From Verrucomicrobiia bacterium (lineage in GTDB: Bacteria > Verrucomicrobiota > Verrucomicrobiia > Limisphaerales > JADLHS01): 64,000 nt of DNA. Below are positions 17,509-47,810 of the stretch, piece after piece. The number at the start of each line of letters is the position of its first letter. Within the stretch, counting starts at the first letter, position 1. The notes under the pieces are model-generated. The model saw only the letters and a program-made list of their open reading frames with translations, was not told the origin of the DNA and searched no databases. Both the position numbers and the translations under genes were made by a program. The stretch covers positions 124,001-188,000 of the forward strand of contig JAHCLO010000010.1 in NCBI GenBank assembly GCA_026125285.1, in the 5' to 3' direction.

Positions 17509-20500
17509 TCATTTGGTTGTGGAGGCGAGGGGGCGCGTCTGAAAAAACAGGGGATACGGCAGGGCCGGATGATTCTGTGCGTCACGGAAACTGTCGAATC
17601 TTTCGAGGTTGATCCACAACGCATACGTCCGGCCCGGGCGCAGTTTCACCGGCAGGACACAGGTGCGCAGATCCACGTAATGGATCTCGCCCACCCGCTC
17701 GGGAAAGGTTTCCTCGGATACCTGACAAAACGCCCACATTTGATTCGTGAGCATGTCTTTGCTGAAGGTGACCCGAATTTCGCTCAACGCGGGATCCACG
17801 TCCGCCGCGCCTGCTTCTGGAACGGTTTTCACGACCACGGGCGGCGGGATTTCCATGCTCCCGTTCACCGGGGATGAATGCGCGACTGAACGCTGCTGTT
17901 CCCGCGCCAAGTCCGCCATGCGTTCGCCGATGCGCCGAAACGCGCGGGCATACTCCTCGTTGTGTTGCGCGAGCCGCCGGACCTTTTCCCAGTCACCTTC
18001 ATCCAGCGCCCGCCGGACCTTGGCAATGTCATTGAATATGCCCACCGGAAATTCCAGGTCCGTCCCCTGCACCACCGCATTGAAGTTGGTCAACAATTCG
18101 AGCAAGCGCCGGGTGCCCGTCCGAGCGGCGGCCAGATTTGTTGCAGTAAACGCCGCGTCAAACTCGTGTCCAAAGTCTTCGATGTGGTTGAACAAAGCGA
18201 CCGCGCGGATTTCATCGAATCCAACTTTGGCCGGGCGCCCGCCTGCGGCGGGCTGCAAGGCGAAGTCGCGGCTCACACTACGGATGCCAAGTGCGCGAGG
18301 ACCGAGATTGGTGGTCAAGGTGGTGTGATCTGGCGCGGAGATTGCAACTGGCTTGCCTTCGGCATACCAACCCACGTAAAGAGTGAAACGCCCGTTCTGA
18401 TCGGCCCGCGCGTCGGCCGGATCGCCTTTCTCGCGGGCGCGCGCCGAGCGGGGCAACAATCTCAATTCCGCATTGGCCACGGGCTGGCCGGTTTGAGCAT
18501 CCACAACGGCACCCCGAACAAAAACACTCGTCGGCACGAACAGTTGTCCCAATCCAAGCGCCAGTGCCAGCGCAATGACAGTGCCCGCCACCACGCCCGT
18601 TCTTCGCCCCCGCGTCGCCCACCAGCAGAAACCGTAAAGCGCCGCCACCGGCAGGGGTGTCTGAAAGAGATTCCATTTGATCCGGCCTTCCGAGATCTGC
18701 CACAGCGTCCAACCCGACGCGATGAGCAGCGCCGCTGTGCCCTCGCGTTTCCAACCGGCCAAGAACCCGGCCAGGATCAGCCCCAGCGCGACGAAGTTCA
18801 GTTGCACGCCTTCCGGCTGCGAAGCGATCGGGGGCAAACCTTCCGCCAGGATGAACATGCCGAAGAAAGCGAGCAGCAACGTGCCAAGGATGCGCGCCAT
18901 CCAGCGCGCCCCGACGACCCACGGTGAGGATGCCTGCTGCGGTTCCGCCGCTCGTCTTGACAGCCCCGCCCGCGCCGCGTCACGCACCGCTCCCCAAGGC
19001 CGAAAATGCCGCTGACTCCCGGCGAGCATGAGCCAAAGCAGCGCGATTCCGCTTGCGAGAACCAGCATCGGCAGCAGCAGCCAGTCATACGTGTGCGCCA
19101 GGTCTCCCAGTTGCAACATCACCCTTTGCCCCCCGGTCAAAACCGTGTTTTGCGCCGCTGCTCGTTCCACGATCAGCGGTTGGACATAGACCCAGAATCC
19201 GCAGAGTACCCAGCCGCCCAGCGAGGCGATCAGCAACATCGCCGCCAGCAAGGACTGGAGTGCGGATCGCGGCCGTTGAGCGGCTGCGGACGACTCTGGT
19301 GCCGGCACATCCAGCTTTTTCAACTGCGCCACCGGCAGCTTGAAACTGCGATAGAATCCAAACGCAAACATCGCAATAAGGAAGCCCAGCAGACCACCCA
19401 CAAGAAATCCGGCGTGCAGCGTCCCAATCACCGGCGATAAAAGGGTCACGACCAACAGCCAGGCGACGCAGTAGATTCCGGCCAGCATGAACGCGTCCTG
19501 CGCGACCCCCGGCCAATGGATCACCCGCCGACCTTCCCGCACCACGACCAACGGCGCAAACCAGCGCTGGAAGGCGCGCGGGGCGGGCGCGGGGGCGGGC
19601 CCACTCACCCCTGCCGTTTTGTTTGGCGGTGATGCGGCAATTGTCTCCACGTCCGTCTTTACCTCGCTCGCATGCTGGTAACGACGCTCCGGCTCCTTTT
19701 CCAGCGCGTGCAGCACCACTTCATCCAGCCGCACGTCCACCTGCACCTTCTTTGACGGTGATTGAAATTTACCCAACGGCAATTCGCCGGTCAGCATTTC
19801 GTAAAACACCACCCCCAACGAATAAATGTCCGCCCGATGATCCACTTTTTGCGGAGTTTCCACCTGCTCCGGCGCCATGTAATGCGGCGTGCCGAGCCGG
19901 TCTTTGGCACCTGTCAACGATGCACCCGTGGCCTGCGCGCCGAGAATCTTGGCGATGCCGAAGTCGGCAATCTTCACCCGGCCCTGCTTGTCGAGCAGAA
20001 TGTTCTCCGGCTTGATGTCACGATGGACGATGCCGCGTTCGTGGGCGAATTGCAGCGCCTCGCAAATCTTCGGCACAATGGTCAGCGCCTCCTCGGGGGA
20101 CAACTTTTTCCTCTGCAACAACTGCCGCAACGCCAGGCCGTCCACGTATTCCATCAGCAGATAATGAAAGCCGCCCGCCTCGCCGAAATCATAAACCGCC
20201 ACAATGTCCGGATGACTCAGCCGCGCCAGCGCGCGGGCCTCCTGTTGAAAACGCGCCGTGAATTCTGTGTCTGAGATGCCGCTGTCCCGACTGCGGATCA
20301 GGATCTTGAGTGCCACGAACCGGTCAAGCTTCGGCTGCCGGGCCTTATAGACCACGCCCATGCCACCGCGTCCGAGACATTCGAGAATCTCCAGTTGGGG
20401 AAAGTGCGGCGTGATTTCTTCAATTGTTGGCACGGGCCGGGTTGGCTTGGCTGCTGCCATGCCACCCGGGCCGACTTCGCCGGTTTCGGCCAGTCCGGCT

Positions 20501-20586
20501 TGAAGCATGCACTCCGGGCAGATGCCCTCGAGTGCCGTCGCCGGCACCGGCTTCCCGCAATGCGGACATGTGGTTTCCGTCGCCAT
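17509..20586 (-). CDS. Multidomain serine/threonine protein kinase with zinc ribbon, membrane helices and exported Ig-like tail
   Basis: The 1025-residue protein opens with a zinc ribbon (CPHC at 7-10, CPEC at 23-26). A Hanks-type kinase follows, with GRGGMG (72-77), Lys94, HRDIKPEN (188-195), DFG (208-210) and MAPEQV, so it should be active. About seven hydrophobic segments lie between residues 350 and 700. Next comes a carboxypeptidase-regulatory-like beta domain (VRGAVVDAQTGQPVANAELR), a helical stretch, and a C-terminal Ig-like domain (PPVVVKTVPEAGAADVDPAL, YALWINLERFDSFRDA). The kinase end should be cytoplasmic and the tail outside, making it a possible transmembrane sensor. The two downstream genes carry the same Ig-like domain. 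Confidence 0.92.
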   Translation of the reverse strand: MATETTCPHCGKPVPATALEGICPECMLQAGLAETGEVGPGGMAAAKPTRPVPTIEEITPHFPQLEILECLGRGGMGVVYKARQPKLDRFVALKILIRSRDSGISDTEFTARFQQEARALARLSHPDIVAVYDFGEAGGFHYLLMEYVDGLALRQLLQRKKLSPEEALTIVPKICEALQFAHERGIVHRDIKPENILLDKQGRVKIADFGIAKILGAQATGASLTGAKDRLGTPHYMAPEQVETPQKVDHRADIYSLGVVFYEMLTGELPLGKFQSPSKKVQVDVRLDEVVLHALEKEPERRYQHASEVKTDVETIAASPPNKTAGVSGPAPAPAPRAFQRWFAPLVVVREGRRVIHWPGVAQDAFMLAGIYCVAWLLVVTLLSPVIGTLHAGFLVGGLLGFLIAMFAFGFYRSFKLPVAQLKKLDVPAPESSAAAQRPRSALQSLLAAMLLIASLGGWVLCGFWVYVQPLIVERAAAQNTVLTGGQRVMLQLGDLAHTYDWLLLPMLVLASGIALLWLMLAGSQRHFRPWGAVRDAARAGLSRRAAEPQQASSPWVVGARWMARILGTLLLAFFGMFILAEGLPPIASQPEGVQLNFVALGLILAGFLAGWKREGTAALLIASGWTLWQISEGRIKWNLFQTPLPVAALYGFCWWATRGRRTGVVAGTVIALALALGLGQLFVPTSVFVRGAVVDAQTGQPVANAELRLLPRSARAREKGDPADARADQNGRFTLYVGWYAEGKPVAISAPDHTTLTTNLGPRALGIRSVSRDFALQPAAGGRPAKVGFDEIRAVALFNHIEDFGHEFDAAFTATNLAAARTGTRRLLELLTNFNAVVQGTDLEFPVGIFNDIAKVRRALDEGDWEKVRRLAQHNEEYARAFRRIGERMADLAREQQRSVAHSSPVNGSMEIPPPVVVKTVPEAGAADVDPALSEIRVTFSKDMLTNQMWAFCQVSEETFPERVGEIHYVDLRTCVLPVKLRPGRTYALWINLERFDSFRDAQNHPALPYPLFFQTRPLASTTK

Positions 20587-20916
20587 ACTTGTCCCTCATC
20601 CTATACAAAGGATTTCCCAGCCCGAGGTTACGCTTCAAGAACCGAAAACCGAACAACGACATTCGGCTTTCCACGACTCATCCCATTGAATCGCAATTCC
20701 CTCTGCCGCCGGTCTAGGGCCGGCTGATGGTGCTCGATTTACCACTCGCGTTCGTTGGCTCTATCGCTTCGAGCCTTCGATCAACGCACGTGCAAAACCG
20801 CCAGCACGTCGGGACTCGGTGCCACCACACAAAGTCACAACTTTGTCACGTCGGCGGCTGCGGCTTGCTCATGGTGGCTTCCCGAACGGAAAATTCCCAT
20901 GCCATGGCTTGTCGTA
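20587..20916. other. Gap between kinase gene and Smr gene
   Basis: These 330 bases should contain the kinase promoter, but no convincing -35/-10 pair was found on the minus strand. A GTCACAACTTTGTCAC stretch near 20828 is the only notable motif. No gene is seen. Confidence 0.35.
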
Positions 20917-21204
20917 TCATGTTGCGCGCGGGCTGGCCGGATGCAGATGCACAATCGTCGCGCCCCAGCCGCCGAACGGTTCGCTGGCCAGCGCGAAGGA
21001 TGCCACGTCCGGATGTTTCGCGAGGATGGAATGGACGGTGCGGCGCAAGTTGCCAATGCCTTTGCCGTGAATGATGCGCACACGAAGGATGCCGCGCTGC
21101 AAACACTCGGCCAGGTAGTCTGGCACCAGGTCTTTGATCTCGCGCGGCTGGAATGTGTGCAGGTCCAGCACACCGTCTATCGGCAGTTGAATCGGCTCAT
21201 CCAT
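20917..21204 (-). CDS. Smr-domain protein
   Basis: This 95-residue stand-alone Smr (MutS2 C-terminal-like) domain has LDLHTFQPREIKDLVPDYL at the start and RIIHGKGIGNLRR with the conserved HGKG turn, ending in GGWGATIVHL. Smr domains bind or nick nucleic acids, and recent work on the family points to roles in ribosome rescue and DNA repair. The start MDEPIQLPIDG was chosen over an ATG 15 codons upstream that adds unrelated residues. It is divergent from the zinc peptidase gene, with about 90 bases between them. Confidence 0.85.
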   Translation of the reverse strand: MDEPIQLPIDGVLDLHTFQPREIKDLVPDYLAECLQRGILRVRIIHGKGIGNLRRTVHSILAKHPDVASFALASEPFGGWGATIVHLHPASPRAT

Positions 21205-21258
21205 GCATCGCAGATTACCCCGGACGATCCCGGCTGAACAAGGCGACATTCGTCACAC

Positions 21259-21287
21259 TTGCCCACTCTCTGCCCGCCTGCTACGGT
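21259..21287 (+). promoter_or_regulatory. Candidate sigma70-type promoter, leaderless layout
   Basis: TTGCCC (21259-21264), a 17-base spacer and TACGGT (21282-21287) stand 7 bases before the ATG at 21295. If correct, transcription would start at or next to the start codon, so the mRNA would lack a Shine-Dalgarno leader, and none is visible. The same arrangement recurs at other plus-strand genes here. Confidence 0.45.
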
Positions 21288-21294
21288 CGCGCCG

Positions 21295-22314
21295 ATGGAA
21301 GCCGGCGACTGGGTGAATCTCAGCGATGACGAGTTGTTGGAGAAACGCATCTCCCAACTCGGCCTGAAACTCGACGGCACGGAAGTCCACCCTCTCATCC
21401 TGCGGCTTTACGAGGAATTGACGCAGAAGGGTCTGGTGTTTCACCCGCCCTGCCACGTCGGCGATGAATGGTTCGTGCCGGTTGGCGTGCCCGCCATCTT
21501 CATTCCGTTTTTTCTCGCGCATGACCGGTTGCGCAAGCTCGAACGCAGGCTGATGCTGGAGGTGGAAGGGGAAACGGCCGAGTGGTTCATGAAACTCATC
21601 CGGCACGAGGCGGCGCACGCCTACTTCTACGCTTACCAGTTTCAGAAAAAGACCAAGTGGCGGCGCGTCTTTGGCGCCACTTCCAACGAGGAAACGCCAC
21701 AGTTTTATCGGCCCCGTCCGTACAGCCGGTCCTACGTGGTGAATCTGGACGACTGGTACGCCCAGAGCCATCCCGACGAGGACTTTGCCGAGACGTTCGC
21801 GGTCTGGCTCACGCCGGGACTGGATTGGCGCGCGCGCTACAAGGATTGGAAGGCGCTGCACAAACTCGAGTACGTGGACGAATTGATGCGTTCACTGGCC
21901 GGCAAGCCGCCGGTGCATCAGCCAGCGTACCAGCCGGCGGAGCACGACTGCCTCAACATCAAGCTCAAGACCTATTACGCGCGCAAACGCAAGCTCTACG
22001 AGGATTCCTATCCCGACTTTTACGACAACGACCTCAAACAACTCTTCGCGGCGGGCGCGGACGTGGCAGGCCGCGTGCAAGCGTCCGTCTATCTGCGCCA
22101 TCACCGGCGGCAATTGATGGACGCCGTCTGCCAGTGGACGAACGAGAAAAAATACCGGGTCAACAAGCTGGTGGCCCGCTTGATTGAGCGTTGCGATCAG
22201 TTGGACCTTTACATCAAAGGCTATGACCCCAGGCAAAACCTGCAGGTGTCTGCCTATATCACCACGCTGGTGATGAATTACCTCTTCACCGGACGATTCA
22301 AACGCACGAAGTAA
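21295..22314 (+). CDS. Putative zinc-binding metallopeptidase
   Basis: The 339-residue protein carries a gluzincin-type site: HEAAH at residues 104-108 (LIRHEAAHAYFYAY) and a downstream Glu167 in HPDEDFAETFAVWL as third ligand. These are the marks of the putative zinc-binding metallopeptidase family common in Planctomycetes and Verrucomicrobia. It has no signal peptide and so is probably cytosolic. The start MEAGDWVNLS was preferred to an ATG at 21259 because of the promoter in front of it. It ends 4 bases before an ATP-grasp gene, so the two form an operon. The substrate is unknown. Confidence 0.8.
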   Translation: MEAGDWVNLSDDELLEKRISQLGLKLDGTEVHPLILRLYEELTQKGLVFHPPCHVGDEWFVPVGVPAIFIPFFLAHDRLRKLERRLMLEVEGETAEWFMKLIRHEAAHAYFYAYQFQKKTKWRRVFGATSNEETPQFYRPRPYSRSYVVNLDDWYAQSHPDEDFAETFAVWLTPGLDWRARYKDWKALHKLEYVDELMRSLAGKPPVHQPAYQPAEHDCLNIKLKTYYARKRKLYEDSYPDFYDNDLKQLFAAGADVAGRVQASVYLRHHRRQLMDAVCQWTNEKKYRVNKLVARLIERCDQLDLYIKGYDPRQNLQVSAYITTLVMNYLFTGRFKRTK

Positions 22315-22318
22315 GCCC

Positions 22319-23338
22319 GTGAAACCCAAACTCAAAATCCTCGCCCTCTTTGACGCCATCGCCCCGACCACGCTGGATCAGGACCTGAGCGCGGAGTTGA
22401 AAACCGACGATTGGAAGACCGAGGCGAACATCCTTGCGGCCCTCGGCGAGCTTGGCCACACCTTCGAGCACCTTGCCATTTTCGATGATCTCGACCTGTT
22501 GCGGCAAAAAATCCAGAGCTACGAGCCGGAACTGATTTTCAACCTCGCGGATCAGTTCAAGAACAACCGCGCCTTCGATCAGAACATCGTGTCGTATCTC
22601 GAACTGCACGGCGTGCCGTTTACCGGTTGCGGTTCAACCGGACTGACCCTCTGCAAACAAAAGGGCATCTCGAAGAAAATCCTGGGCTACCATCGCATTC
22701 GCGTGCCCGAGTTCACGGTGATTCCGCGCGGCAAACGCCAGGCCCGGCCCAAACGGCTCAAGTTTCCCATCCTGGTGAAACCCTTGAAGGAGGAGGCGTC
22801 CTACGGCATTTCGCAGGCGTCATTCGTCGAGACCGATGAACAGTTCAAAGAGCGTGTCCAGTTTCTCCACGAGAAGACCGGCAACGATGTCATTGCCGAG
22901 GAATACATCGAAGGCCGCGAACTTTATGTGAGCCTGCTGGGCAATCACCGTTTGCAGGTATTTCCCATTCGCGAACTCGTCTTTCAGGAGGTGCCGCCGG
23001 ACGAACCCAAGATCGCCACCTACAAGGCCAAGTGGGACGAGGAATACCGCAAACGCTGGGGCTTGCAGAACCGTTTCGCCGAAGGGCTTGATCCCGCCGT
23101 GGTGCGCCAGATCGAGCAAACCTGCAAGCGCATCTATCGGTTGCTCACCATTGACGGCTACGCGCGCATTGACCTGCGCCTCACCGCGAACAACGAGATT
23201 TACTTCATCGAAGCCAACCCCAATCCGATCCTCGCGGCGGACGAAGATTTCGCGCAATCCGCCGCCAAGGCGAGCCTGCTCTACCCGCAATTGATTGATC
23301 GCATTGTGCGCCTGGGCCTGAACACGGTGCGGGATTGA
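22319..23338 (+). CDS. ATP-grasp ligase, D-alanine--D-alanine ligase-like
   Basis: This 339-residue protein starts with GTG. Its ATP-grasp fold shows KFPILVKPLKEEASYGISQA (ATP lysine), NDVIAEEYIEGRELYVSLLG (hinge) and GYARIDLRLT with NEIYFIEANPNPIL (metal ligands Asp, Glu, Asn). It is shorter and more divergent than housekeeping Ddl. Such enzymes join an amine to a carboxylate through an acyl phosphate. The tight coupling to the zinc peptidase suggests that one makes and the other processes a peptide-like compound. That is inference; the substrates are not known. Confidence 0.85.
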   Translation: MKPKLKILALFDAIAPTTLDQDLSAELKTDDWKTEANILAALGELGHTFEHLAIFDDLDLLRQKIQSYEPELIFNLADQFKNNRAFDQNIVSYLELHGVPFTGCGSTGLTLCKQKGISKKILGYHRIRVPEFTVIPRGKRQARPKRLKFPILVKPLKEEASYGISQASFVETDEQFKERVQFLHEKTGNDVIAEEYIEGRELYVSLLGNHRLQVFPIRELVFQEVPPDEPKIATYKAKWDEEYRKRWGLQNRFAEGLDPAVVRQIEQTCKRIYRLLTIDGYARIDLRLTANNEIYFIEANPNPILAADEDFAQSAAKASLLYPQLIDRIVRLGLNTVRD

Positions 23339-23344
23339 ACGGGT

Positions 23345-23976
23345 TATGCGGCTCATGGCCCAGGGGCGATTGCACGCCTCGGCGGGCGCGACCCGGAGAC
23401 ACAATGGGCGCGGCCTTGGGATGGCCAGTGGCGGCTGGTGCTCATCGACGTGCCCACCGGACAGAACGCCCAGCGCGAGCGGCTGCGCCGCTACCTGCGC
23501 GACAAAGGCTTCGGCTACCTGCAAAGCAGCGTGTGGATCAGCCCCGATCCGCTGGCGCGGGAACGCAAGATTCTCGGAGGCGGCAAGATCAATGTTGAAT
23601 CGCTGATCCTCCTGGAAGCGCGACCGCGCGCACGTTCCCTCGCCCATCGGATGGGAGAGGGTGGCCGCCAGGCCGGGTGAGGGGTTGAGGCTGCGCGGAA
23701 ATCGTCGCGGGCGCGTGGGACTTCGAGCGCATCAACCGCCGCTATGCCCGGCATCTGAAGGTGCTGGCGGAGCGACCGGGCGGCGCGCTCTGAAATCTGA
23801 AATCTGGCATCTGCAATCCAGCGAAGCGTGGGCTGCCCGGCCGGATCCTGCCGTCGGATTATCTGGGGCAACCGGCGTGGCGGCGGCGGGTGGAAGTGCT
23901 GCGCGACGCCGGCCGGCAACTGTCCCGAATGCTTTCGGGATTCAACCCCGAAAAAACCGGCGCAGCCCGCGCGTGA
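23345..23976 (+). pseudogene. PaaX-family regulator, degraded
   Basis: Three pieces of one protein appear in different frames. The first is LGGRDPETQWARPWDGQWRL plus VLIDVPTGQNAQRERLRRYL, then GFGYLQSSVWISPDPLARER (to about 23620). The second is EIVAGAWDFERINRRYARHL ending at 23793. The third is RILPSDYLGQPAWRRRVEVL plus RDAGRQL, closing with tga at 23974-23976. Together they cover the Cas2-like middle domain and C-terminus of a PaaX regulator (phenylacetate-type repressor). The DNA-binding N-terminus is missing. A frame change lies near 23377 and a repeat is inserted near 23626-23697. Confidence 0.7.
23626..23697. repeat. Short palindromic repeat inserted in the PaaX-like gene
   Basis: The segment contains CCCTCGCCCATCGGATGGGA and GAGGGTGGCCGCCAGGCCGG. 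The inner part CCATCGGATGG is palindromic and CCCTC...GAGGG pairs around it. Coding resemblance to PaaX stops at its left edge and resumes in another frame at its right edge, so it is a late insertion. Confidence 0.6.
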
Positions 23977-23988
23977 CGCAGGACAACC

Positions 23989-24010
23989 TTTTGTTGCATA
24001 TGCAACAAAA
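23989..24010. promoter_or_regulatory. Perfect 22-bp palindrome
   Basis: TTTTGTTGCAT is followed directly by its exact complement ATGCAACAAAA. The centre TTGCATATGCAA looks like an operator for a dimeric helix-turn-helix regulator, or the arms of a small mobile repeat. It sits 13 bases after the PaaX-like pseudogene ends. No gene starts close enough to name a target. Confidence 0.5.
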
Positions 24011-24044
24011 GATCGGTCATGGCAATCGTGCTGCGGTTGGCTGA

Positions 24045-24180
24045 CTGGGAAGGGCTGAAAGCCCGAAAGAAAATAGCCCAGGGCAAAGCGAGTGGTGGCC
24101 GTGCGCGAGCACCGAGCGACGCCCTGGGTCAACCGTCCACAAAATTTCCAAGCCCTGAGAGGGCGGTAGAATCGCTCTTC
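24045..24180. repeat. Intergenic element with paired AGGGCTGAAAGCCC-type palindromes
   Basis: The stretch contains GGAAGGGCTGAAAGCCCGAA, then GCCCAGGGC, its partner GCCCTGGGTC after a short interval, and AAGCCCTGAGAGGGCGGTAG at the end. The parts pair within and between each other. I recall similar sequences as dispersed elements in related genomes, but only this copy was seen in the window. Confidence 0.5.
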
Positions 24181-24889
24181 AACTCGGCGCGTTGCTTGAA
24201 CCTTTGCCCCGATTGCATTCCAAGCAGGCAGTGATGAGATTTTCCAACTCGTCTTTCCCACCTTGAGCTACGGAAATCTTGTGGTCCGCCTCAAGGATGA
24301 CATCAGGCGGACGTTTGCCACAGTAGCAGCAAGTGAAGGAATCGCGGGCAAACACCTGCCAGCGCAATTTTGGATTCAAAGCTGTGCGAGCCGACTTCAT
24401 CTTGGATTTCTTCCCGGAGCTTAACTCCGAGAAAATGGAGTATTCGCGACATTCGGTGTAGTGACACGGCGTGACCCCAGCCCAATGCCATTGAGGGTCG
24501 TTGGAGTCAGCGCTCTCCTTGGCCAAGCGTTCTGCGGCCAGACCAGAGTCAATTTCGTCTGCGTAGCGGTAGAGACCGCTGGCGAACAGGCCGAAGATGT
24601 TCTTTGAGACTTCCGGGCAGAAGTTGGAAACGGAGGAGAACTTGCCGTCCGCGTGAGCGATGCCTGGCTCTTCTTCGGCTATCGTCGGCTTCAGAGACGC
24701 CCACTTCTTATCAAGCCGTGCCTTGTCTTCATCCGAAATCTTGGTCGTGATGCTGGCGTTTCCCAGCAACCAAATGCTCGCGTAGTAGCGAGGACAAAGT
24801 TCTGCGCTTGCGATTGGGCATCGTTTCGGCAGTTTGGCCTTGGCGCTCTGGGACGAATACCAGTCAAAATCTGGGACAATGTTTTTCAC
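24179..24889 (-). CDS. HNH endonuclease with conserved Cys/His N-terminal domain
   Basis: This protein of about 236 residues has a C-terminal HNH nuclease: LRWQVFARDSFTCCYCGKRP, then DVILEADHKISVAQGGKDEL and ENLITACLECNRGKG. The Asp202-His203 pair is catalytic, and zinc cysteines sit at 187-190, 222 and 225. Residues 1-155 are a separate domain with Cys24, Cys32 (CPIASAELCPRYYASIW), Cys90 (NFCPEV), His143 and Cys147 (CHYTECREYSIF). I recall this domain fused to HNH in other bacteria but cannot name it. The GTG at 24889 gives the start MKNIVPDFDW; a TTG four codons upstream is open too. It follows the kinase-TPR gene by 78 bases, so it is probably co-transcribed. GC content looks lower than average. 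Confidence 0.85.
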   Translation of the reverse strand: MKNIVPDFDWYSSQSAKAKLPKRCPIASAELCPRYYASIWLLGNASITTKISDEDKARLDKKWASLKPTIAEEEPGIAHADGKFSSVSNFCPEVSKNIFGLFASGLYRYADEIDSGLAAERLAKESADSNDPQWHWAGVTPCHYTECREYSIFSELSSGKKSKMKSARTALNPKLRWQVFARDSFTCCYCGKRPPDVILEADHKISVAQGGKDELENLITACLECNRGKGSSNAPS

Positions 24890-24967
24890 ACAATACTGCA
24901 ATCATCCACGTTGGCGTGCAATGTGGCGAGCATGGAATCGCACGGCTCTCTCGCCCTGAAAGGCTGG

Positions 24968-26887
24968 TCATCGCTTACCCAGCCTCTCGCGGCAACGTGC
25001 CATGTGGCCAGCGGCGCTCGTGTCGCCCAGCTTCTCCGCATGTTGGAAGCAATTCATCGCGTCCTGAAAACGCTCCATAGAAACGAACCCAAGCCCTTTC
25101 AAGATCCAGAGCGGGCTGAAGTTGGGATGGGTTTTCAACGCGCGGTTGCAGCATTTGACGACATCCTGATGCCGCCCGAGGAAACCGATTGAATGGCCCA
25201 TGTTGAACCACGCAAACGCATTTCCTAAATCGAGTTTCAGCCCGCTTTCGTAACACGAGACAGCGTCGGCGTGTTGCTGCAACTTCGCCAGAACTGCGGC
25301 TTTAGAAAACCATGCCTGCGCGTAGTTGGGATTTGCGGTCAACGCTCCATCGAAGGCCACAATCGCCTCCCTGAGTTGACCAAGTTTCTCCAAAATCCGG
25401 CCCTTGCTGTTCCATGCCGAGACCATTTTGGGATTGATGGAAATCGCTTTTTCAAAGCTGGCAATCGCGTCTGAAGCACGCCCCACGCCCATCAATGCAG
25501 CGCCTCGGTTAGTCCAAGCGTCAACGTTTGTTGGGTCTATGGCGAGCGCGGCCTCGCAGCATCGGATAGCCTCTTCATAATTGCGCAACTCGTAAGCTGC
25601 GCGTCCTCGGTCAAGGTGTAAGAGCGTTCGGCACTGCTCAACGAATCTGGCGGCGGTTGCATCGCCAAGTTTGTGCGCTTCCTGAAAACAGGTGAGGGCT
25701 TCATCATGTCGTTCCAGTTCGAGCATCACCTGGCCTTTGTTCGACCAGGCAACTGCAAAGCCTGGCTTCAATGCCAAGGCTCGGCCAAAGCAATCAAGAG
25801 CTTCCGCGTGCTGGCCAACCTCGAAGTGCGACGCGCCTTTGTTCAACCACGCTTCCGCGAGGGATGGATTGAGCGAAATCGCTCTGTTGAAACATTCAAG
25901 CGAATCATCGGCTCGCCCCAACTTGCCGAGGCTGTTCCCCTTGTTGACCAGATGAAATGCAGTCAACTCGTCCCCGGCCATCGGTTTTGGAACACACAGC
26001 CCGGTCTGCGCCTCATAGAGCGACGCCAAATCACGCCGCAACTGGCCGAAATCCTGGTAACGTTCGCTCGAATTCTTGCGAAGACACTTCTCAATGATGG
26101 AGCGGACTCGATGGTTTGAGATTTTGTGGATTGGCGGTGTGCCTCTCATGTGCAACGCGGCGAACTCCATGAACGTGCGGCCTATGAACGGAAGTTCCCC
26201 AGTCAGCATCTGGAACAACATCACGCCAAACGAATAAATGTCTGCACGCACGTCCACGCGCTTCGCGTCCTCGAATTGTTCTGGTGACATGTGAGTCCAT
26301 GTCCCCGCAGCCGTGCCGGTTTGGCTGAGGCCAACGCTCAAGTGCCCGGCGGGAGAATCAGCCTCTCCCCACGGAATCGCGTCGTCGAAAACCTTTGCCA
26401 ACCCGAAGTCCGTAATCTTGAGAACGCCGCTGCTGGTGATGAGGCAGTTCTGAGGCTTGATGTCCCGATGCGCCTTGATTCCTTTTGAAGCAACGTGCTG
26501 CATCCCGTCGCAGAACTGGATGCTGAATCTGAGCACTTGCGGCAGGTCGTCAGTGAGCCGTGGCGTTCCAATCCACCGTCCAAGGTCGCCGCCACTGACG
26601 TATTCAAGAAACAAGAAAGGCTTGCCACCGATGACGTGAAGAAGGCGCGCCTCGGTGATGTTTTCGTGGAGGTCGAGGTTGACCCAAGCCAATGCCTCCT
26701 TTTCAAACCTGTCTTTGATGTTCGGGTTTCGAGCGAAGACTTCGTCCTGAAAAGTTTTGGCTGCGAACGCCTCCCGCCACTCGCGGTCATAGACGATAAA
26801 CACCACACCCATCCCGCCCTGTAAGATGTGGTGGACTTCCCAGCGCCTTTGAACCACATCGCCAATTTTCCAATTTGAACCATTCAC
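24968..26887 (-). CDS. Serine/threonine protein kinase with TPR repeats
   Basis: The 639-residue protein starts with GTG. The kinase domain (about 1-300) shows LQGGMGVVF (22-30), Lys44, HRDIKPQN (140-147), DFG (160-162) and MSPEQ (200-204), so catalysis is expected. From about 310 to 639 it carries about nine TPR units such as AEAWLNKGASHFEVGQHAEA and VDAWTNRGAALMGVGRASDA. There is no transmembrane helix, so it is cytosolic. TPR arrays usually bind partner proteins. It sits upstream of the HNH nuclease gene on the same strand, and mobile-element sequences lie just upstream. A kinase/TPR sensor with a nuclease is a layout seen in defence loci; that role is inference. Confidence 0.9.
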   Translation of the reverse strand: MNGSNWKIGDVVQRRWEVHHILQGGMGVVFIVYDREWREAFAAKTFQDEVFARNPNIKDRFEKEALAWVNLDLHENITEARLLHVIGGKPFLFLEYVSGGDLGRWIGTPRLTDDLPQVLRFSIQFCDGMQHVASKGIKAHRDIKPQNCLITSSGVLKITDFGLAKVFDDAIPWGEADSPAGHLSVGLSQTGTAAGTWTHMSPEQFEDAKRVDVRADIYSFGVMLFQMLTGELPFIGRTFMEFAALHMRGTPPIHKISNHRVRSIIEKCLRKNSSERYQDFGQLRRDLASLYEAQTGLCVPKPMAGDELTAFHLVNKGNSLGKLGRADDSLECFNRAISLNPSLAEAWLNKGASHFEVGQHAEALDCFGRALALKPGFAVAWSNKGQVMLELERHDEALTCFQEAHKLGDATAARFVEQCRTLLHLDRGRAAYELRNYEEAIRCCEAALAIDPTNVDAWTNRGAALMGVGRASDAIASFEKAISINPKMVSAWNSKGRILEKLGQLREAIVAFDGALTANPNYAQAWFSKAAVLAKLQQHADAVSCYESGLKLDLGNAFAWFNMGHSIGFLGRHQDVVKCCNRALKTHPNFSPLWILKGLGFVSMERFQDAMNCFQHAEKLGDTSAAGHMARCRERLGKR

Positions 26888-26908
26888 GCTTCCATCCTTC
26901 GCTGGCTG

Positions 26909-27236
26909 CTACGAGTTGAAAAGTTTTTCCACCTTCGCCTTCACGCTCTTAAGAAACTCCCTGTGCAAAGTGCTATTGGTGAGGCGATTAAGGATTCCGG
27001 AGTTTTTTCCATCATCAGCCCCCAAGCGGGGGTCCGTGCTTTCATCCATCTTGATGAGCGGCGGCCAGGGGCCTTTGAAGCCTTCGCCGGGCAGTTTCTT
27101 CGTCGCGTCAATGCCGAGTTTGCTGCCTTGCCCCGTGAGATAATCCGTCCGCGAGTAGCACTGGGACTTTGCCAATGCCCTATCTCACGGGGCGAGGCGA
27201 TTTCGCTGGTGGCGTGGTCGAGCACGTCGTCGGTCA
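26909..27236 (-). pseudogene. ubiD-like decarboxylase, 3' fragment (copy 1) with two insertions
   Basis: Only the C-terminal end of a UbiD-family decarboxylase is present: DVLDHATSEIAS, then SKLGIDATKKLPGEGFKGPW plus PPLIKMDES, and VKAKVEKLF. Compared with copy 2 at 27979-28427 it has an extra segment at 27131-27192 (a MITE-like element) and another of about 90 bases at roughly 26950-27040, which reads through in frame as TDPRLGADDGKNSGILNRL and so on. The fragment ends at a TAG within CGTAGCAGCC, a REP-like head. It cannot make a working enzyme. Confidence 0.8.
27131..27192. mobile_element. MITE-like palindromic insertion, copy 2
   Basis: CCCCGTGAGATAA (27131-27143) and TATCTCACGGGG (27181-27192) are terminal inverted repeats of 12 bases around a 38-base non-coding centre. 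The ubiD copy at 28.1 kb runs straight from TTTGCTGCC to GGCGATTTCGCTGG, showing that this segment is an insertion. The ends match the element at 8641-8731; the centres differ. Confidence 0.7.
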
Positions 27237-27238
27237 TT

Positions 27239-27262
27239 GTAGCAGCCGACGTGAGTCGGCTC
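27239..27262 (-). repeat. GTAG-headed REP palindrome, inverted partner
   Basis: The plus strand reads GTAGCAGCCGACGTGAGTCG then GCTC: a GTAG head followed by arms AGCCGAC and GTCGGCT around GTGA. It faces the REP at 27310-27333 in inverted orientation, about 47 bases away, so the pair can form a larger hairpin. It marks where the similarity of ubiD copy 1 stops. Confidence 0.75.
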
Positions 27263-27309
27263 ATTCTTTCTTCGGTTGGTTTCAATAGCACGAGCATATC
27301 GCAAAGTTT

Positions 27310-27333
27310 GAGCGGACTCACGTCCGCTGCTAC
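27310..27333 (+). repeat. GTAG-headed REP palindrome downstream of the RAYT gene
   Basis: The complement reads GTAGCAGCGGACGTGAGTCC then GCTC, with arms AGCGGAC and GTCCGCT. It lies 3 bases beyond the stop codon of the RAYT gene, and the identical 24 bases lie upstream of the gene at 27959-27982. Confidence 0.8.
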
Positions 27334-27336
27334 GGG

Positions 27337-27951
27337 TCAAAAGGGCGGCCGGACAATCTTCCCGGCATCTGCTGCCAAATTTGCGGCATAGGTTTTCCAG
27401 AACGTCGGCCAGAAATCGTCTTCCAGCGGGTGCATGGCTGGATAGCCGGGAACAACCGCGCCGCAAAACTTCCATTCTTTAGGATGCCCCACCAGACCTT
27501 CCTTCCGGGCATTGTCGATGATGTAGAAGCAGACCTTGGCGAAAGCGTTGCGCTTGCGTTGCTCGGTTCTCAGCACGTGGTCGTGCGCTTGGTGTTGGAA
27601 ACGATGCAGGCGCAACTTTGGCGCGAGGTGCTCACGAAGGAATTTCATTCCATTCTTTTGGTCGGTGTCGCGCCGCACTCCCATCCAGACGAGATGAGTA
27701 TGATCCGGCATCAGGCAATAAGTCGGGCAGAAGAATCCTTCGCGGGCCGCGGCGTGGAGCATGATTTCGCGGAAGTGGGAGTGGAATGCGTCGTCCAGCC
27801 AACCCGCGGCGCGCATGGCGATGGGCATGGTCCAATGAACGACCGCGTCGGCTTGATAGTATTCGCGCGGCAGACGTTGCAGGTAGAAGCTCCGATTTGT
27901 GCCTGAGCCGCTGAGATGATTTGCAGCTTCTGGTTGATCGGGTGGTTTCAT
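27337..27951 (-). CDS. REP-associated tyrosine transposase (RAYT, Y1_Tnp/IS200-like)
   Basis: The 204-residue protein is an HUH single-strand transposase. The HUH motif is His84-Thr-His86 in CLMPDHTHLVWMGV, and the likely catalytic Tyr143 lies in AKVCFYIIDNARKEGL. The tail GHPKEWKFCGAVVPGYPAMH is typical of the group. Such proteins cut and join at REP palindromes with a GTAG or GGAG head. Identical GTAG-headed REPs lie immediately on both sides (27310-27333 and 27959-27982), so gene and substrate sites form a complete unit. The frame is intact, and this is the only intact copy of the family in the window. Confidence 0.9.
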   Translation of the reverse strand: MKPPDQPEAANHLSGSGTNRSFYLQRLPREYYQADAVVHWTMPIAMRAAGWLDDAFHSHFREIMLHAAAREGFFCPTYCLMPDHTHLVWMGVRRDTDQKNGMKFLREHLAPKLRLHRFQHQAHDHVLRTEQRKRNAFAKVCFYIIDNARKEGLVGHPKEWKFCGAVVPGYPAMHPLEDDFWPTFWKTYAANLAADAGKIVRPPF

Positions 27952-27958
27952 TTGGTGA

Positions 27959-27982
27959 GAGCGGACTCACGTCCGCTGCTAC
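27959..27982 (+). repeat. GTAG-headed REP palindrome upstream of the RAYT gene
   Basis: Identical in sequence and orientation to the REP at 27310-27333. It begins 8 bases before the RAYT start codon. The stop codon of ubiD copy 2 (TAG at 27979-27981) is supplied by its GTAG head, so the element forms the 3' border of that gene fragment. Confidence 0.8.
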
Positions 27983-28427
27983 AGGTTAAGGATTTTCGCC
28001 ACGCGCGCCTTCACGCTTTCATCCATCTGGATGAGCGGCGGCCAGGGACGTTTGAAACCTTCGCCCGGCAGTTCCCTTGTCGCGTCGATGCCGAGTTTGC
28101 TGCCGCTGGCGATTTCGCTGGTGGCATGGTCGAGCACGTCGGACGGGCCTTTCGTGAAGATGCTGTCGCGTTGCGGATCGGTGTTGGCGCAGAGGCGGAA
28201 GACGACTTCGCTGGTGTTGCGTACGTCCACGTCGGCGTCCACCACCACGATGTATTTGGTGAACATCATTTTTCTCATGCCCCAGAGGCCGTGCATGATC
28301 TTGTAGGCTTGCATCGGGTAGGTCTTCCTGATGCGTCACGAAGACGAGGTTGTGGAAGACGCCTTCCGCCGGCAGCGCGATGTCCACGATCTCGGGGAAG
28401 ATCATTTTGAAGATGAAGCCTCGCCCA
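27979..28427 (-). pseudogene. ubiD-like decarboxylase, 3' fragment (copy 2) with frameshift
   Basis: The last 145 or so residues of a UbiD-family (prenylated-flavin) decarboxylase are visible: FKMIFPEIVDIALPAEGVFH plus NLVFV, then after a one-base shift near 28330 RKTYPMQAYKIMHGLWGMRK, MMFTKYIVVVDADVDVRNTS, RLCANTDPQRDSIFTKGPSD and LGIDATRELPGEGFKRPWPP. The N-terminal two thirds are absent; the SMP-30 gene begins its 3' end right at the break. It shares its end with copy 1, so one is a duplicate of the other. Confidence 0.85.
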
Positions 28428-29336
28428 CTATGTGGCGGCATTGGCCCCGCGATACTTCATTGGGATCGCGTACAGCCCGGTGCTGGCAGTGATGAACAAC
28501 GTTTTGTGATCCTTGCCGCCGAAGCTGACGTTGGCCGTCCAGCCCTCCGGCACGTCAATGTGCGCAATCTGTTTGCCGGTCTTGTCGAATACGATCACTC
28601 CCCGTCCGGTGAGATACAGGTTGCCCTCCGTATCGAGCGTCATGCCATCCGAGCCGAGTTCGCAGTGGAGATGTTTGTTGGCCAGCGAGCCGTCGGGTTG
28701 AATGTCGTAGCGGTAAGTCTTGCGCGCGCGAATGTCCGCCACGTAGAGCGTCTTGCCGTCCGGGGTGCCGATGATGCCGTTGGGCTGTTCGAGGTCGGTG
28801 GTCACGCGCTTGAGTGGCTGGCGGTCGGCGCTGAGGAAATAAACCTGCTGCGTGCCTTGGGGCGGGTCGTTGTGATTCCACCACGGACGCTTGTAGAACG
28901 GGTCGGTGAAATACAGGCTGCCGTCTGCGCGCACCCATACGTCATTCGGGCCGTTGAGCGGCTTGCCCTCGAATTCCCCCGCCAGCACGGTGTGTTTGCC
29001 GTCGGGGGTGATGGACCATAACTCCATTTTTTCATCCGCGCAGGCGATGAGGTTGCCCTGTGCATCGAAGAACATTCCGTTCGCACGGCCGGCCGGCTGC
29101 AGAAACGTGGAGAGTTGTCCGTCCACGCTCCACTTCAGGATGCGATTGTTCGGCTGGTCGGTGAAGAAGACATTGCCCAACTTGTCGGCGGTTGGGCCTT
29201 CGGTGAATTTGAAATCGCCGGCGAGCTTTTCAAGTTTCGCCCCCGGCGCGATGACGCTGGTGGACGGGGTGGTCGGTTGGGCGGACATTTGGATTGCCAA
29301 CCCCAGCAGCAACGGAAACAAGGCATAACTTTTCAT
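28428..29336 (-). CDS. Exported SMP-30/gluconolactonase-family protein
   Basis: The 302-residue protein has a signal peptide (MKSYALFPLLLGLAIQMSAQ) and a six-bladed propeller of the SMP-30/gluconolactonase/LRE family. Metal-site motifs are visible: FTEGPTADKLGNVFFTD (Glu), LNGPNDVWVRADGSLYFTD (Asn) and LGSDGMTLDTEGNLYLTG (Asp). The family hydrolyses sugar lactones, and exported members are frequent near sugar-degradation genes in this phylum. A longer ORF start at 29426 adds a non-signal stretch and was rejected. Its 3' end abuts the ubiD fragment. Confidence 0.9.
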   Translation of the reverse strand: MKSYALFPLLLGLAIQMSAQPTTPSTSVIAPGAKLEKLAGDFKFTEGPTADKLGNVFFTDQPNNRILKWSVDGQLSTFLQPAGRANGMFFDAQGNLIACADEKMELWSITPDGKHTVLAGEFEGKPLNGPNDVWVRADGSLYFTDPFYKRPWWNHNDPPQGTQQVYFLSADRQPLKRVTTDLEQPNGIIGTPDGKTLYVADIRARKTYRYDIQPDGSLANKHLHCELGSDGMTLDTEGNLYLTGRGVIVFDKTGKQIAHIDVPEGWTANVSFGGKDHKTLFITASTGLYAIPMKYRGANAAT

Positions 29337-29486
29337 GGCCCAAGCTTCCGCCGACGGCCACGGTGCGTCAACAACGCATCCGATCAAGAAGCTGCGGCCG
29401 GAACTCTTGCACCCACACTGCCGCACGGCAGCGTGGTTGACCTTCCTTCCCGAAAGCGCGCGAATTCGGGGATTGAGACCCGAAGC

Positions 29487-30131
29487 CTAGTCCGCCTTTG
29501 CGGGCTTTTCCGGTTCCCACGGCACGACCCATTTGTAAATGGTGTGCGAACCACCGTGGTATTCGTCGTCGTTGCCGCCCCGATTATCGCTGTTCATGTG
29601 ATGCACCTGAACAGGTTTGGCCCCGCGCATATCGAAGTCATGGGAGACGATGCGCGACCCTTTCTTCAGCTTGGCCAGTTGCGGCATCAACCGCACGTTC
29701 AGATCCGGCAGCAGGTAAAGTGTCACCACACTCGCCTCGCGCAGATCCAACGTGAAGATGTCCTCCTGCTTGATGGTCACCAGGTGTTCGACCTTGTTGG
29801 AGCGGACGTTGGCCAGGGCTTCCTTGACGCGTTGCGGGTCTATGTCGAATCCGATGGCCTTGACGCCGTACTTCTTGGCCGCCGTTACCACAATCCGTCC
29901 ATCGCCGCAACCCAGGTCGTACACCACGTCGCCTTTCTTGACCTCGGCCATTTCGAGCATCTTCTCCACCACGGCCTGGGGGGTCGGTACATAAATGACA
30001 TCCGGCTCGCGGGTGGCCTTTTCTGTCGCGGCAGTCTGGGCGGCCGCAAATTGGGGCGCGGCCGCAATGATTGTCAGCGCGCCGAGCATGGCGAGAGGCC
30101 AGACGCTTTGCCGTCGGATCAAGCATTTCAT
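29487..30131 (-). CDS. SAM-dependent methyltransferase-like protein with signal peptide
   Basis: Residues about 43-214 form a class I methyltransferase: YVPTPQAVVEKMLEMAEVKK, the SAM loop VVYDLGCGDGRIVVTAAKKY (GCGDGR at 74-79), the acidic VKAIGFDIDPQRVKEA and VVTLYLLPDLNVRLMPQL. Ahead of this is a typical export signal (MKCLIRRQSVWPLAMLGALT then AAAPQFAAAQ). A methyltransferase outside the cytoplasm would lack SAM, so the signal is puzzling; the helix may act as a membrane anchor instead. The ATG at 30131 was chosen; the frame is open to 30353 but overlaps a divergent gene. Confidence 0.85.
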   Translation of the reverse strand: MKCLIRRQSVWPLAMLGALTIIAAAPQFAAAQTAATEKATREPDVIYVPTPQAVVEKMLEMAEVKKGDVVYDLGCGDGRIVVTAAKKYGVKAIGFDIDPQRVKEALANVRSNKVEHLVTIKQEDIFTLDLREASVVTLYLLPDLNVRLMPQLAKLKKGSRIVSHDFDMRGAKPVQVHHMNSDNRGGNDDEYHGGSHTIYKWVVPWEPEKPAKAD

Positions 30132-30291
30132 GGGTGGAACTAGTTCCGCAAAAAGTGGCGCGGCGCAACTCAAAAATGGCCCTCCAACATCTGGCATCCT
30201 GGCCACCGTGGCGACGGCAGGCCGTCCAGCCGCGGCAACGACCGCGGTTTTTGCGTCGCCAACCGCGAATGAGAGTCCTACCTTTCCGGCC

Positions 30292-30732
30292 ATGGCGTAC
30301 GAGTTCAAGATCACCCGGCGCGTGGAGTTCGCCGAAACCGACATGGCGGGCATCGTCCATTACTCGAATTTCTTCCGCTACATGGAGGTGGCCGAGCACG
30401 CGTTCTTCCGGTCGCTGGGATTTTCCGTCGTCACCCGGCAGGTGGACCCGCCGGTGGGTTGGCCGCGGGTGCATGCGGAGTGCGATTACTCCGAGCCGTT
30501 GCGGTTTGAAGACGAAGTGGAAGTCCACATGCTCGTGAGCCGGAAGCGGTCAAAGTCTCTCACCTACTTGTTTCGCTTTCGCCGCGTGAACGACCAACCG
30601 CCGGTGGAGATTGCGCGCGGTTCGCTCACGGTGGTGTGCGTGACCCATCACGGCGCGAAGATGACAGCGGCAACGATTCCCAAGGAGATTGCGGACAAGA
30701 TTGAAGTAGCGCCGGCAGAGTTGCTGGCCTAA
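30292..30732 (+). CDS. Acyl-CoA thioesterase, YbgC/4-hydroxybenzoyl-CoA thioesterase family
   Basis: The 146-residue hotdog-fold protein has the family motif FAETDMAGIVHYSNFFRYME with catalytic Asp, then AECDYSEPLRFEDEVEVHML and LTYLFRFRRVNDQPPVEIAR. It hydrolyses acyl-CoA (or acyl-ACP) to the free acid. The start MAYEFKITRRVEF is usual for the family; the open frame upstream is non-coding. A CoA-ligase-type gene lies 600 bases downstream on the same strand, which could provide its substrate. That is inference. Confidence 0.92.
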   Translation: MAYEFKITRRVEFAETDMAGIVHYSNFFRYMEVAEHAFFRSLGFSVVTRQVDPPVGWPRVHAECDYSEPLRFEDEVEVHMLVSRKRSKSLTYLFRFRRVNDQPPVEIARGSLTVVCVTHHGAKMTAATIPKEIADKIEVAPAELLA

Positions 30733-30764
30733 CCCACCGCCCGCCGTCGGTAGCGACAAACGGT

Positions 30765-30793
30765 TTGCGATGGGGCCAGGCCGCAACTACATT
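30765..30793 (+). promoter_or_regulatory. Candidate sigma70-type promoter, leaderless layout
   Basis: TTGCGA (30765-30770), a 17-base spacer and TACATT (30788-30793) end 8 bases before the ATG at 30802. No Shine-Dalgarno sequence is present between them. Confidence 0.45.
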
Positions 30794-30801
30794 GCCGCCC
30801 C

Positions 30802-31338
30802 ATGAACTGGCTCCTTTATGCGCTCCTTACTGTGGCGTGCTGGGGTGTGTACGGCATTTTCCTGCATACCGGCACCCTGGGCATGACCGATCCCGTGAAC
30901 GGCCGCCTCAAGGCCTTTCTGTTGGTCGGCGTGGCCTACTTTCTCACGGCCGTGTTGGCGCCGCTCGCGATTCTGATGGCCAAGGGCGCGGAGGTCTCGT
31001 TCTGGAATTATCCCTCCAAAGGACTCTGGTGGTCGCTGGTGGCCGGCATTGTGGGGGCAGTGGGCGCCTTGGGCGTGCTGCTGGCGTTCGGAGTCGGCGG
31101 CAAACCCGCGGTGGTGATGTCCATCATCTTCGCCGGGGCGCCGATTGTGAACGCGGTGGTGGCCATCCTCCAGCATCCGCCGGCCGGGGGGTGGGGAGCG
31201 ATCAAACCCCAGTTCTTTCTGGGCATCTTGCTGGCGGCAATCGGCGCGGGAATGGTGATGTACTTCAAACCACCGCCGGCGCCAGCGAAACCGGCGGCGA
31301 CGCCACCGGCACTTTCCGAAGCGGCCAGTCGGCATTGA
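30802..31338 (+). CDS. Half-size DMT/EamA-like membrane protein
   Basis: The 178-residue protein has five predicted helices (around 1-18, 38-60, 76-98, 103-122, 138-153), the length of a single EamA half. Typical stretches are WLLYALLTVACWGVYGIFLH and FGVGGKPAVVMSIIFAGAPI. The C-terminus is an Ala/Pro-rich tail. Half-size members of this superfamily usually pair to form the transporter. The substrate is unknown. It ends 6 bases before the ligase gene, so they share an operon. Confidence 0.8.
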   Translation: MNWLLYALLTVACWGVYGIFLHTGTLGMTDPVNGRLKAFLLVGVAYFLTAVLAPLAILMAKGAEVSFWNYPSKGLWWSLVAGIVGAVGALGVLLAFGVGGKPAVVMSIIFAGAPIVNAVVAILQHPPAGGWGAIKPQFFLGILLAAIGAGMVMYFKPPPAPAKPAATPPALSEAASRH

Positions 31339-31344
31339 ATCACC

Positions 31345-32652
31345 ATGAACGAAGGCGCGCATCCTGACCGGATGGCCATGATGGCGAACCAACTCGACCA
31401 ACTCCGCTCCCTGCTCGCCGAGCTGATTCCCGCGAATGTCTTTTACACGCGCAAACTGCAGAGCCACGGCGCGACCTTCGACGTCGCGTCGTTGGAGGAT
31501 TACTCGGCGCGATTCCCCTTCACCACCAAACCGGAATTGGTGGAAGACCAGCGTCGGAATCCGCCGTTCGGAACGAACCTGACGTATCCGCTCAACCGCT
31601 ACACGCGCTTCCACCAAACCAGCGGCACCAGCGGCACGCCGTTGCGCTGGCTGGACACGCCGGAGAGTTGGGACGGCATGGTGGAAGACTGGATGAACGT
31701 CTTTCGCGCCGCCGGGGTGGCTGCCGGTGATCGGGTCTATTTTGCCTTCTCGTTCGGGCCGTTCATCGGATTCTGGATGGCCTATGAATCCGCTGCCCGC
31801 CTTGGCTGCCTGTGTCTGCCTGGCGGGGGCATGAGCAGTGCCGCCCGGCTGCGGGCCATCATGGAGAATGGCGCCACCGTGCTTTGCTGCACGCCCACCT
31901 ATGCCATCCGCCTCGGTGAAGTCGCGGCGGAGGAAAAACTGGACCTCGGCGCGGCGCGGGTGCGAAGAATCATCGTCGCGGGCGAACCGGGCGGCAGCGT
32001 GCTGGCAACGCGGGCGCGCATTGAATCGTTGTGGGCCGGCGCACGGGTGTTCGATCACCACGGGATGACGGAAGTCGGCCCGGTGACGTTTGAATGTCCC
32101 GCCCAACCGGGCGTCTTGCATGTCATGGAATCGGGTTACTACGCCGAGATCATTGACCCAGCCACCTGCCGGCCCATTCCGCCGGGCGAGACCGGCGAAT
32201 TAGTTTTAACCACGCTGGGCCGCACCGGCTCGCCGCTGTTACGCTATCGCACGGGCGACTTGGTGAGACGCGGCACTGGCAACGGCACCCGGGGAACACC
32301 GTGCGCCTGTGGCAGCCGCGAACTGGCGTTGGACGGCGGCATCCTCGGCCGCGTGGACGACATGCTCATCGTTCGCGGGGTGAACGTTTATCCGAGCGCG
32401 GTGGAGGAGATCGTGCGTTCCTGCGAAGGCGTCGCAGAATACCAGGTGCGGATCACCGAAGCCATGGCGCTGACGGAAATGCGCGTCGAGATTGAACCCA
32501 CCGTGGATTGCCGTGACGCGACGCAACTGGCCGCGCGCGTGACGAAGGCGTTTGAAACCGCCCTTGCCTTGCGCGTGCCGGTAAGCGCCGTGACACCGGG
32601 CGCGTTGCCGCGCTACGAAATGAAAGCGAAGCGCTGGGTGCGAGGCGCTTGA
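31345..32652 (+). CDS. Phenylacetate-CoA ligase-like AMP-forming enzyme
   Basis: The 435-residue protein belongs to the PaaK branch of adenylate-forming enzymes. It has the P-loop TRFHQTSGTSGTPLRW, the aromatic FDHHGMTEVGPVTFEC, PGETGELVLTTLGRTGSPLL plus RYRTGDLV, and the hinge GRVDDMLIVRGVNVYPSAVE. It should activate a carboxylic acid, probably aromatic, to its CoA thioester. A PaaX-type regulator relic lies 8 kb away, which may be chance. No other phenylacetate genes are present, so the substrate stays open. Confidence 0.9.
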   Translation: MNEGAHPDRMAMMANQLDQLRSLLAELIPANVFYTRKLQSHGATFDVASLEDYSARFPFTTKPELVEDQRRNPPFGTNLTYPLNRYTRFHQTSGTSGTPLRWLDTPESWDGMVEDWMNVFRAAGVAAGDRVYFAFSFGPFIGFWMAYESAARLGCLCLPGGGMSSAARLRAIMENGATVLCCTPTYAIRLGEVAAEEKLDLGAARVRRIIVAGEPGGSVLATRARIESLWAGARVFDHHGMTEVGPVTFECPAQPGVLHVMESGYYAEIIDPATCRPIPPGETGELVLTTLGRTGSPLLRYRTGDLVRRGTGNGTRGTPCACGSRELALDGGILGRVDDMLIVRGVNVYPSAVEEIVRSCEGVAEYQVRITEAMALTEMRVEIEPTVDCRDATQLAARVTKAFETALALRVPVSAVTPGALPRYEMKAKRWVRGA

Positions 32653-46929: not shown

Positions 46930-47146
46930 GGGACTAGTTTGGCGCGGGGTGAACAGAAGTCAACCGGGTGAACCGACCGTGCTAAACAACTGGCCCGTCA
47001 CCGAACGGCTGCGGTTGAACCAAGTCCCAGCCGGATAGATCGCGATATGCTTTGCCTGCATAACATTTATGGCAGCCAGATGCCGCACGCGGCGGTACTT
47101 GCCATCACCCTCTCGGCAGCAAACTGGCCCGTCTCGATTGGGTTTT

Positions 47147-47596: not shown

Positions 47597-47642
47597 AGCT
47601 TGGACTTTAACTCACGGGCTGAAGAGTGCTCAGGTCAAACCG

Positions 47643-47810
47643 CTATGGCCCGACCCCCAAGAGCGCATCATATACATCCTTCAGCCACTTCACCAACTTG
47701 CCCAGGAATTTCTTGCCGCGCGTGCTTCGAACCGCTCGAACAAATAGAAATGTCACGTACGCCACGAATAGCAAACCAAGGAGAATCGAAATGTATTCCC
47801 TGAACGTCAT
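47643..47810 (-). CDS. Predicted small membrane protein
   Basis: The 55-residue product has a transmembrane helix at about residues 6-26 (YISILLGLLFVAYVTFLFVR) and a basic amphipathic tail (STRGKKFLGKLVKWLKDVYD). An ATG ten codons upstream is also open. The function is unknown, and support comes from composition and its place in the island. Confidence 0.5.
   Translation of the reverse strand: MTFREYISILLGLLFVAYVTFLFVRAVRSTRGKKFLGKLVKWLKDVYDALLGVGP

Follow-up and report, generated by a model that had tools for sequence, protein, structure and literature searches.

Described systems closest to the locus

P2 has an anti-phage hotspot at gpA-gpQ, flanked by its replication and portal genes, in which old and tin are found (Rousset et al. 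2022, PMC9122126). The window analysed here, a stretch of 64,000 nucleotides from contig 2 of the 7.16-Mb genome of a member of the Verrucomicrobiia, contains a gene, hereafter called the HNH gene, which codes for an N-terminal region of 157 amino acids (the N-domain) followed by an HNH endonuclease domain. Relatives of the N-domain occupy in P2-like prophages the same slot as old, tin and the other hotspot genes, but the window gene is chromosomal and has an HNH tail instead of an Abi_C-like one. No report naming the N-domain family was found.

In bacterial immunity a sensor is often retained and its effectors are exchanged. Among the domains of interest here, TIR in bacterial immunity commonly targets NAD+, HNH is a DNA-cleaving domain, and Abi_C is found in abortive-infection proteins. 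The tail of the enterobacterial N-domain relatives is Abi_C-like (PF14355), with the motif RNK...GHG, but when searched alone such tails gave 21.1 and 17.1 bits (E 3.4e-4 and 6.1e-3), under the Pfam cut-off of 24, and the window protein has no PF14355 match. In one relative the N-domain is followed by a TIR domain similar to that of ThsB of Thoeris (PADLOC ThsB1, E 1.5e-33), but the ThsB models match from approximately residue 160 and not in the N-domain, and no Thoeris partner was noticed nearby. Septu also includes an HNH nuclease, PtuB, and PtuAB adjoins one N-domain relative, but the HNH protein of the window matches PtuB weakly (E 0.0025, HNH part only) and its gene has no PtuA ATPase as neighbour. 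Septu was rejected, the HNH gene being flanked by a gene for a kinase with tetratricopeptide repeats (kinase-TPR gene) and, on the downstream side, by a D-Ala-ligase-like ATP-grasp gene. IscB (RuvC-HNH) was rejected too, the match being limited to the HNH part and reaching 45.6 bits with NF040563, for which the cut-off is 175.

The kinase of the window shares its Hanks domain with PD-T4-6 and MADS6 (PADLOC E 3e-50 and 3e-53), but these models match the kinase domain only (aa 10-294), a region common to Hanks kinases generally. With the model of the MAD6 kinase of MADS (NCBIfam NF047741, cut-off 460 bits) it scored 94.4 bits, and identification as MADS6 was rejected; the match to PD-T4-6 is likewise not specific enough to name the kinase. 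A parallel arrangement occurs on a Chlorohelix plasmid, in which a cytosolic kinase-TPR gene overlaps a gene for a candidate effector with FHA, GAF and TIR domains, but the two kinases are only 26.5 % identical and the Chlorohelix effector, rejected as a carrier of the N-domain, has FHA and TIR domains and no N-domain. The Chlorohelix operon (L063, 4983-7184 and 3727-4986) has a gene for a Swt1-HEPN protein ahead of it and has the look of a conflict operon.

The HNH fusion gene and the kinase-TPR gene

The features of the locus are listed in Table 1. The longest open reading frame over the HNH gene begins at TTG 24901. The homologues begin with MKRIVPDKKW, and the window protein reads MKNIVPDFDW from the GTG (GTG-AAA-AAC-ATT-GTC-CCA) at 24889, which was taken as the start codon instead of TTG 24901 because the homologues begin at the matching residue. 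With this start the gap of 78 nt after the stop codon of the kinase gene, as given in the first-pass annotation together with the common strand, is correct. The HNH domain matches PF01844 with an E value of 2.6e-12 (47.1 bits, cut-off 21.4) over profile positions 1-46 of 47, its motifs DH, N and CxxCN are intact, and in profile searches it was nearest to phage and IscB-type HNH domains. No recognised defence system adjoining the HNH gene was identified in the window.

Table 1 Features of the kinase-HNH locus (window coordinates)
Feature	Position	Strand	Remarks
HNH fusion gene	24179..24889	minus	236 aa, GTG start; undescribed N-domain + HNH
HNH endonuclease domain	24194..24394	minus	approximately aa 166-232; PF01844 match and motifs
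Undescribed N-terminal domain of HNH gene	24419..24889	minus	aa 1-157; invariant C24, C32, C91, C147
Hanks-type Ser/Thr kinase gene (cytosolic product, 8-9 TPRs)	24968..26887	minus	639 aa; upstream of HNH gene, candidate partner only
Kinase domain	25990..26887	minus	aa 1-299; Pfam
Second, partial copy of ubiD 3' end	26909..27230	minus	directly upstream of kinase
REP-like palindromes beside RAYT-like gene	27239..27333		further copy 27961-27979
RAYT-like (REP-associated tyrosine transposase) gene	27337..27951	minus	NCBIfam NF047646 43.9 bits, cut-off 80
Frameshifted ubiD 3' remnant	27979..28440	minus	

The kinase has a Pkinase domain (PF00069) at residues 20-277 (E 9.7e-33, 114.1 bits, cut-off 31.7) with the motifs GGMGVV (24), AAK (42), HRDIKPQN (140), DFG (160), SPE (201) and DIYSFG (216), followed by eight TPR_1 stretches between approximately residues 310 and 620, corresponding to eight to nine repeats. 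No hydrophobic stretch resembling a transmembrane helix was found in the protein. The earlier description of a cytosolic Hanks kinase with about nine TPRs, followed by a nuclease, with catalytic residues kept in both proteins, was thus confirmed: both ORFs are uninterrupted and all of the expected motifs are present. A second Hanks kinase of 1,025 amino acids with a Big_5-like C-terminal part, which is among the 48 Pkinase matches of the genome, is encoded 4 kb from the pair (17509-20586).

Composition and mobile DNA around the gene pair

The two genes have GC contents of 0.541 and 0.555 and GC3 values of 0.646 and 0.652, compared with GC3 of 0.70-0.80 in the other non-mobile window genes which were measured, in agreement with the lower GC reported for the pair in the first-pass annotation; the GC3 of the RAYT-like gene is 0.659. 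A second stretch of low GC (0.495-0.517) is found at 47001-49000 of the window. The mobile DNA reported at the border, namely ubiD debris, a RAYT unit and palindromes, was also found, with the RAYT-like gene scoring under the curated cut-off. The 3' end of ubiD is duplicated around the RAYT-like gene (27999-28104 and 27022-27127, 85 % identical), and the three REP-like palindromes are located at 27242, 27312 and 27961. A search with Rfam over 20000-32000 gave nothing. On the other side, a Peptidase_Mx-like gene is followed after 4 nt by the D-Ala-D-Ala-ligase-like ATP-grasp gene (21259-23338). This ATP-grasp gene was not found in the same-genus genome G101, so synteny with G101 demonstrates no empty site.

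The N-domain family and its tails

Residues 1-157 of the HNH protein had no match in Pfam, NCBIfam, PADLOC or PHROGs, and their comparison with PDB sequences gave nothing credible (best E 0.33). Relatives were gathered by tblastn and profile search from the window's class and its phylum, E. coli, plasmids, phages and viral contigs; none was found in phage records, and a single scan of genome contigs returned an HNH match only. In a literature search which left subscription papers mostly outside, neither the N-domain nor a kinase-HNH-TPR system was found to be described, in line with the first-pass annotation, in which this exact pair was not recognised as a described system. The N-domain family looks undescribed, and its combination with HNH looks like a new architecture in it. 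The fusion of the N-domain with HNH was seen in this genome only, a single instance so far.

An alignment of ten diverse members contained 13 invariant columns, including C24, C32, C91 and C147, and the window protein has the four cysteines and the W10, CPRY and CPE residues at the aligned positions. The N-terminal domain had previously been called Cys/His-rich; the cysteines are indeed invariant in the family, but no histidine is. The four invariant cysteines suggest a metal site, and probably hold a zinc ion or an Fe-S cluster. AlphaFold models of the N-domain, made from thin alignments, had mean pLDDT values of 33.6 and 33.9. A match from a pattern scan (L051) was rejected as a chance match, since no family member was present among its ORFs.

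Relatives with the same N-terminal domain differ in their tails, and the N-domain is therefore regarded as the constant part and the tail as the acting part. In the window's class a TIR tail (TIR_2, E 2.4e-21) is found in one genome (G055, L008), a hydrophobic C-terminal helix in G085 (L009) and amphipathic tails in G012 (L010) and G690 (L067). The Abi_C-like tail is found in the N-domain proteins of Enterobacterales (L013, L014, L015, L026-L030 and L054-L057). Copies of the gene with this type of tail in Rac-like prophages (L058, 7001-7867; L031 and L032, 6001-6867) are divided into two ORFs and annotated as two hypothetical proteins.

Genomic context of the N-domain relatives

The N-domain gene is rare in E. 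coli, being present in 23 of 5,426 genomes, and in the window's class it was found in 4 of 384 and 2 of 303 genomes in two sets, approximately 1 %. The neighbourhoods were read as individual cases, and the enterobacterial loci include several near-identical copies of one context, which therefore do not count as independent. In E. coli P2-like prophages, from which the relative WP_032317446.1 comes, the N-domain gene is flanked by the replication and portal genes, and at one P2-type locus it adjoins PtuA and PtuB of Septu (PADLOC E 7e-122 and 2e-82). In the chromosome of E. coli NCTC9064 it is flanked by LmuA/LmuB of Lamassu (PADLOC E 4e-196 and 0) and by GajB/GajA of Gabija (E 1e-234 and 3e-238). 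On a Salmonella plasmid it is located 1.7 kb from a SMODS nucleotidyltransferase gene, after which SLATT_6 follows, and it is also present in P1-like phage-plasmids. In a Rac-like prophage of E. coli a split copy lies approximately 4 kb from SieB, a superinfection exclusion gene.

Outside the enterobacteria, the N-domain gene of G690 is in a prophage, beside a gene for an LRR-Roc-COR-TIR protein and a gpA-type terminase gene, and the TIR fusion of G055 is on the same contig as a TrwC relaxase gene. The LRR-Roc-COR-TIR protein has 1,014 amino acids; its gene (L068, 4749-7793, minus strand) has a small-terminase-like gene on one side and the gpA-type large terminase gene on the other. Directly upstream of the N-domain-TIR gene of G055 is a gene for a protein of 319 amino acids (L041, 7411-8370), which has a weak PADLOC match to PDC-M14B and the end of which, by eye, resembles a PD-(D/E)XK nuclease. 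No known defence neighbour was found for the N-domain genes of G085 and G012.

Proposed role of the HNH protein and alternative explanations

Judged from sequence, the HNH gene would encode a conflict protein which unites sensor and effector and is most likely directed against phages, a reading to which we assign a probability of about 0.58. It is based on the repeated occurrence of the N-domain at known defence hotspots in front of different effector-like tails, and the patchy distribution of the N-domain and the low GC3 shared by the HNH gene and the kinase gene are also in its favour. Of the candidate defence role given in the first-pass annotation, the part concerning the HNH gene is thereby retained and the kinase-nuclease module is not. 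The N-domain would recognise a sign of infection and the C-terminal HNH domain, once activated, would cut DNA of the phage or of the host; cleavage of DNA is proposed because the tail of the window protein is HNH. The outcome would be abortive infection, with benefit to the host. More tentatively, and at somewhat less than even odds, the N-domain may be a new infection sensor with a metal or Fe-S site formed by its four cysteines, belonging to a single-gene abortive-infection family whose tails (TIR, HNH, Abi_C-like, membrane) are interchangeable and which has been spread by prophages and plasmids in enterobacteria and the window's class.

The kinase and the HNH gene could alternatively form a two-gene system, in which infection is sensed by the TPRs of the kinase and the nuclease is switched on when the kinase phosphorylates its N-domain. 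The close spacing on one strand, the similarly low GC3 and the sporadic occurrence of both genes are consistent with such a system, as is the Chlorohelix operon, in which a kinase and an effector are also combined, but we consider it unlikely. The kinase domain had no match among all ORFs of 20 N-domain gene neighbourhoods (266 kb), and the N-domain and HNH domain had none among the ORFs around kinase relatives, which comprised one verrucomicrobial-type locus, four plasmid loci and seven short loci of kinases from the window's own genome. Co-occurrence of homologues, on which the first-pass annotation had made its defined two-gene module depend, was thus seen at no sampled locus, and within the sample a conserved kinase-HNH pair was rejected. 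Among 272 genomes of the class, a single kinase relative beyond the window reached E ≤ 1e-80; this closest relative, in G038, adjoins topoisomerase-VI-like and amidohydrolase-like genes (by eye) and has no HNH neighbour. As the window's genome has 48 PF00069 and 10 HNH matches, chance adjacency is plausible, and a single kinase-HNH adjacency is unremarkable and carries little weight. Promoter and terminator scans of 24000-27400 are uninformative on co-transcription, since the sites were no more numerous than in shuffled sequences. The kinase gene appears to be a one-off neighbour of the HNH gene, shares its low GC and probably arrived on the same segment; it may be co-transcribed with the HNH gene and could modulate the HNH protein, but it is not a required partner.

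Most N-domain members are found in prophages, phage-plasmids or plasmids, and the copy near SieB would also fit a view of these proteins as morons or selfish elements belonging to phages and plasmids, serving superinfection exclusion or competition between elements and not host immunity, with the window gene as one that persists in a chromosome. This appears quite unlikely: the member between Lamassu and Gabija is chromosomal, and the explanation differs from anti-phage defence mainly in the beneficiary, not in the mechanism. That the gene codes for a homing-type or generic HNH endonuclease which gained an unrelated N-domain by chance, with no role in conflict, is very unlikely; its HNH domain is indeed closest to phage and IscB-type domains and the fusion is confined to one genome, but the N-domain is full length with its four cysteines kept, and the relatives are repeatedly fused to other effector-like domains. 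We give hardly any credence to the gene pair being an acquired, now inactive remnant, despite the broken ubiD copies next to it and the splitting of some E. coli relatives into two ORFs, because both window ORFs are open and contain all of the expected motifs.

On the sensor-plus-effector reading, the HNH gene represents a new architecture within an apparently undescribed sensor-effector family and not a new kinase-nuclease system. If this is true, the compact unannotated domain with swapped effectors in E. coli prophages would be a directly testable new sensor, and recognition of the N-domain would let annotation tools name genes which are now listed as 'hypothetical protein'.
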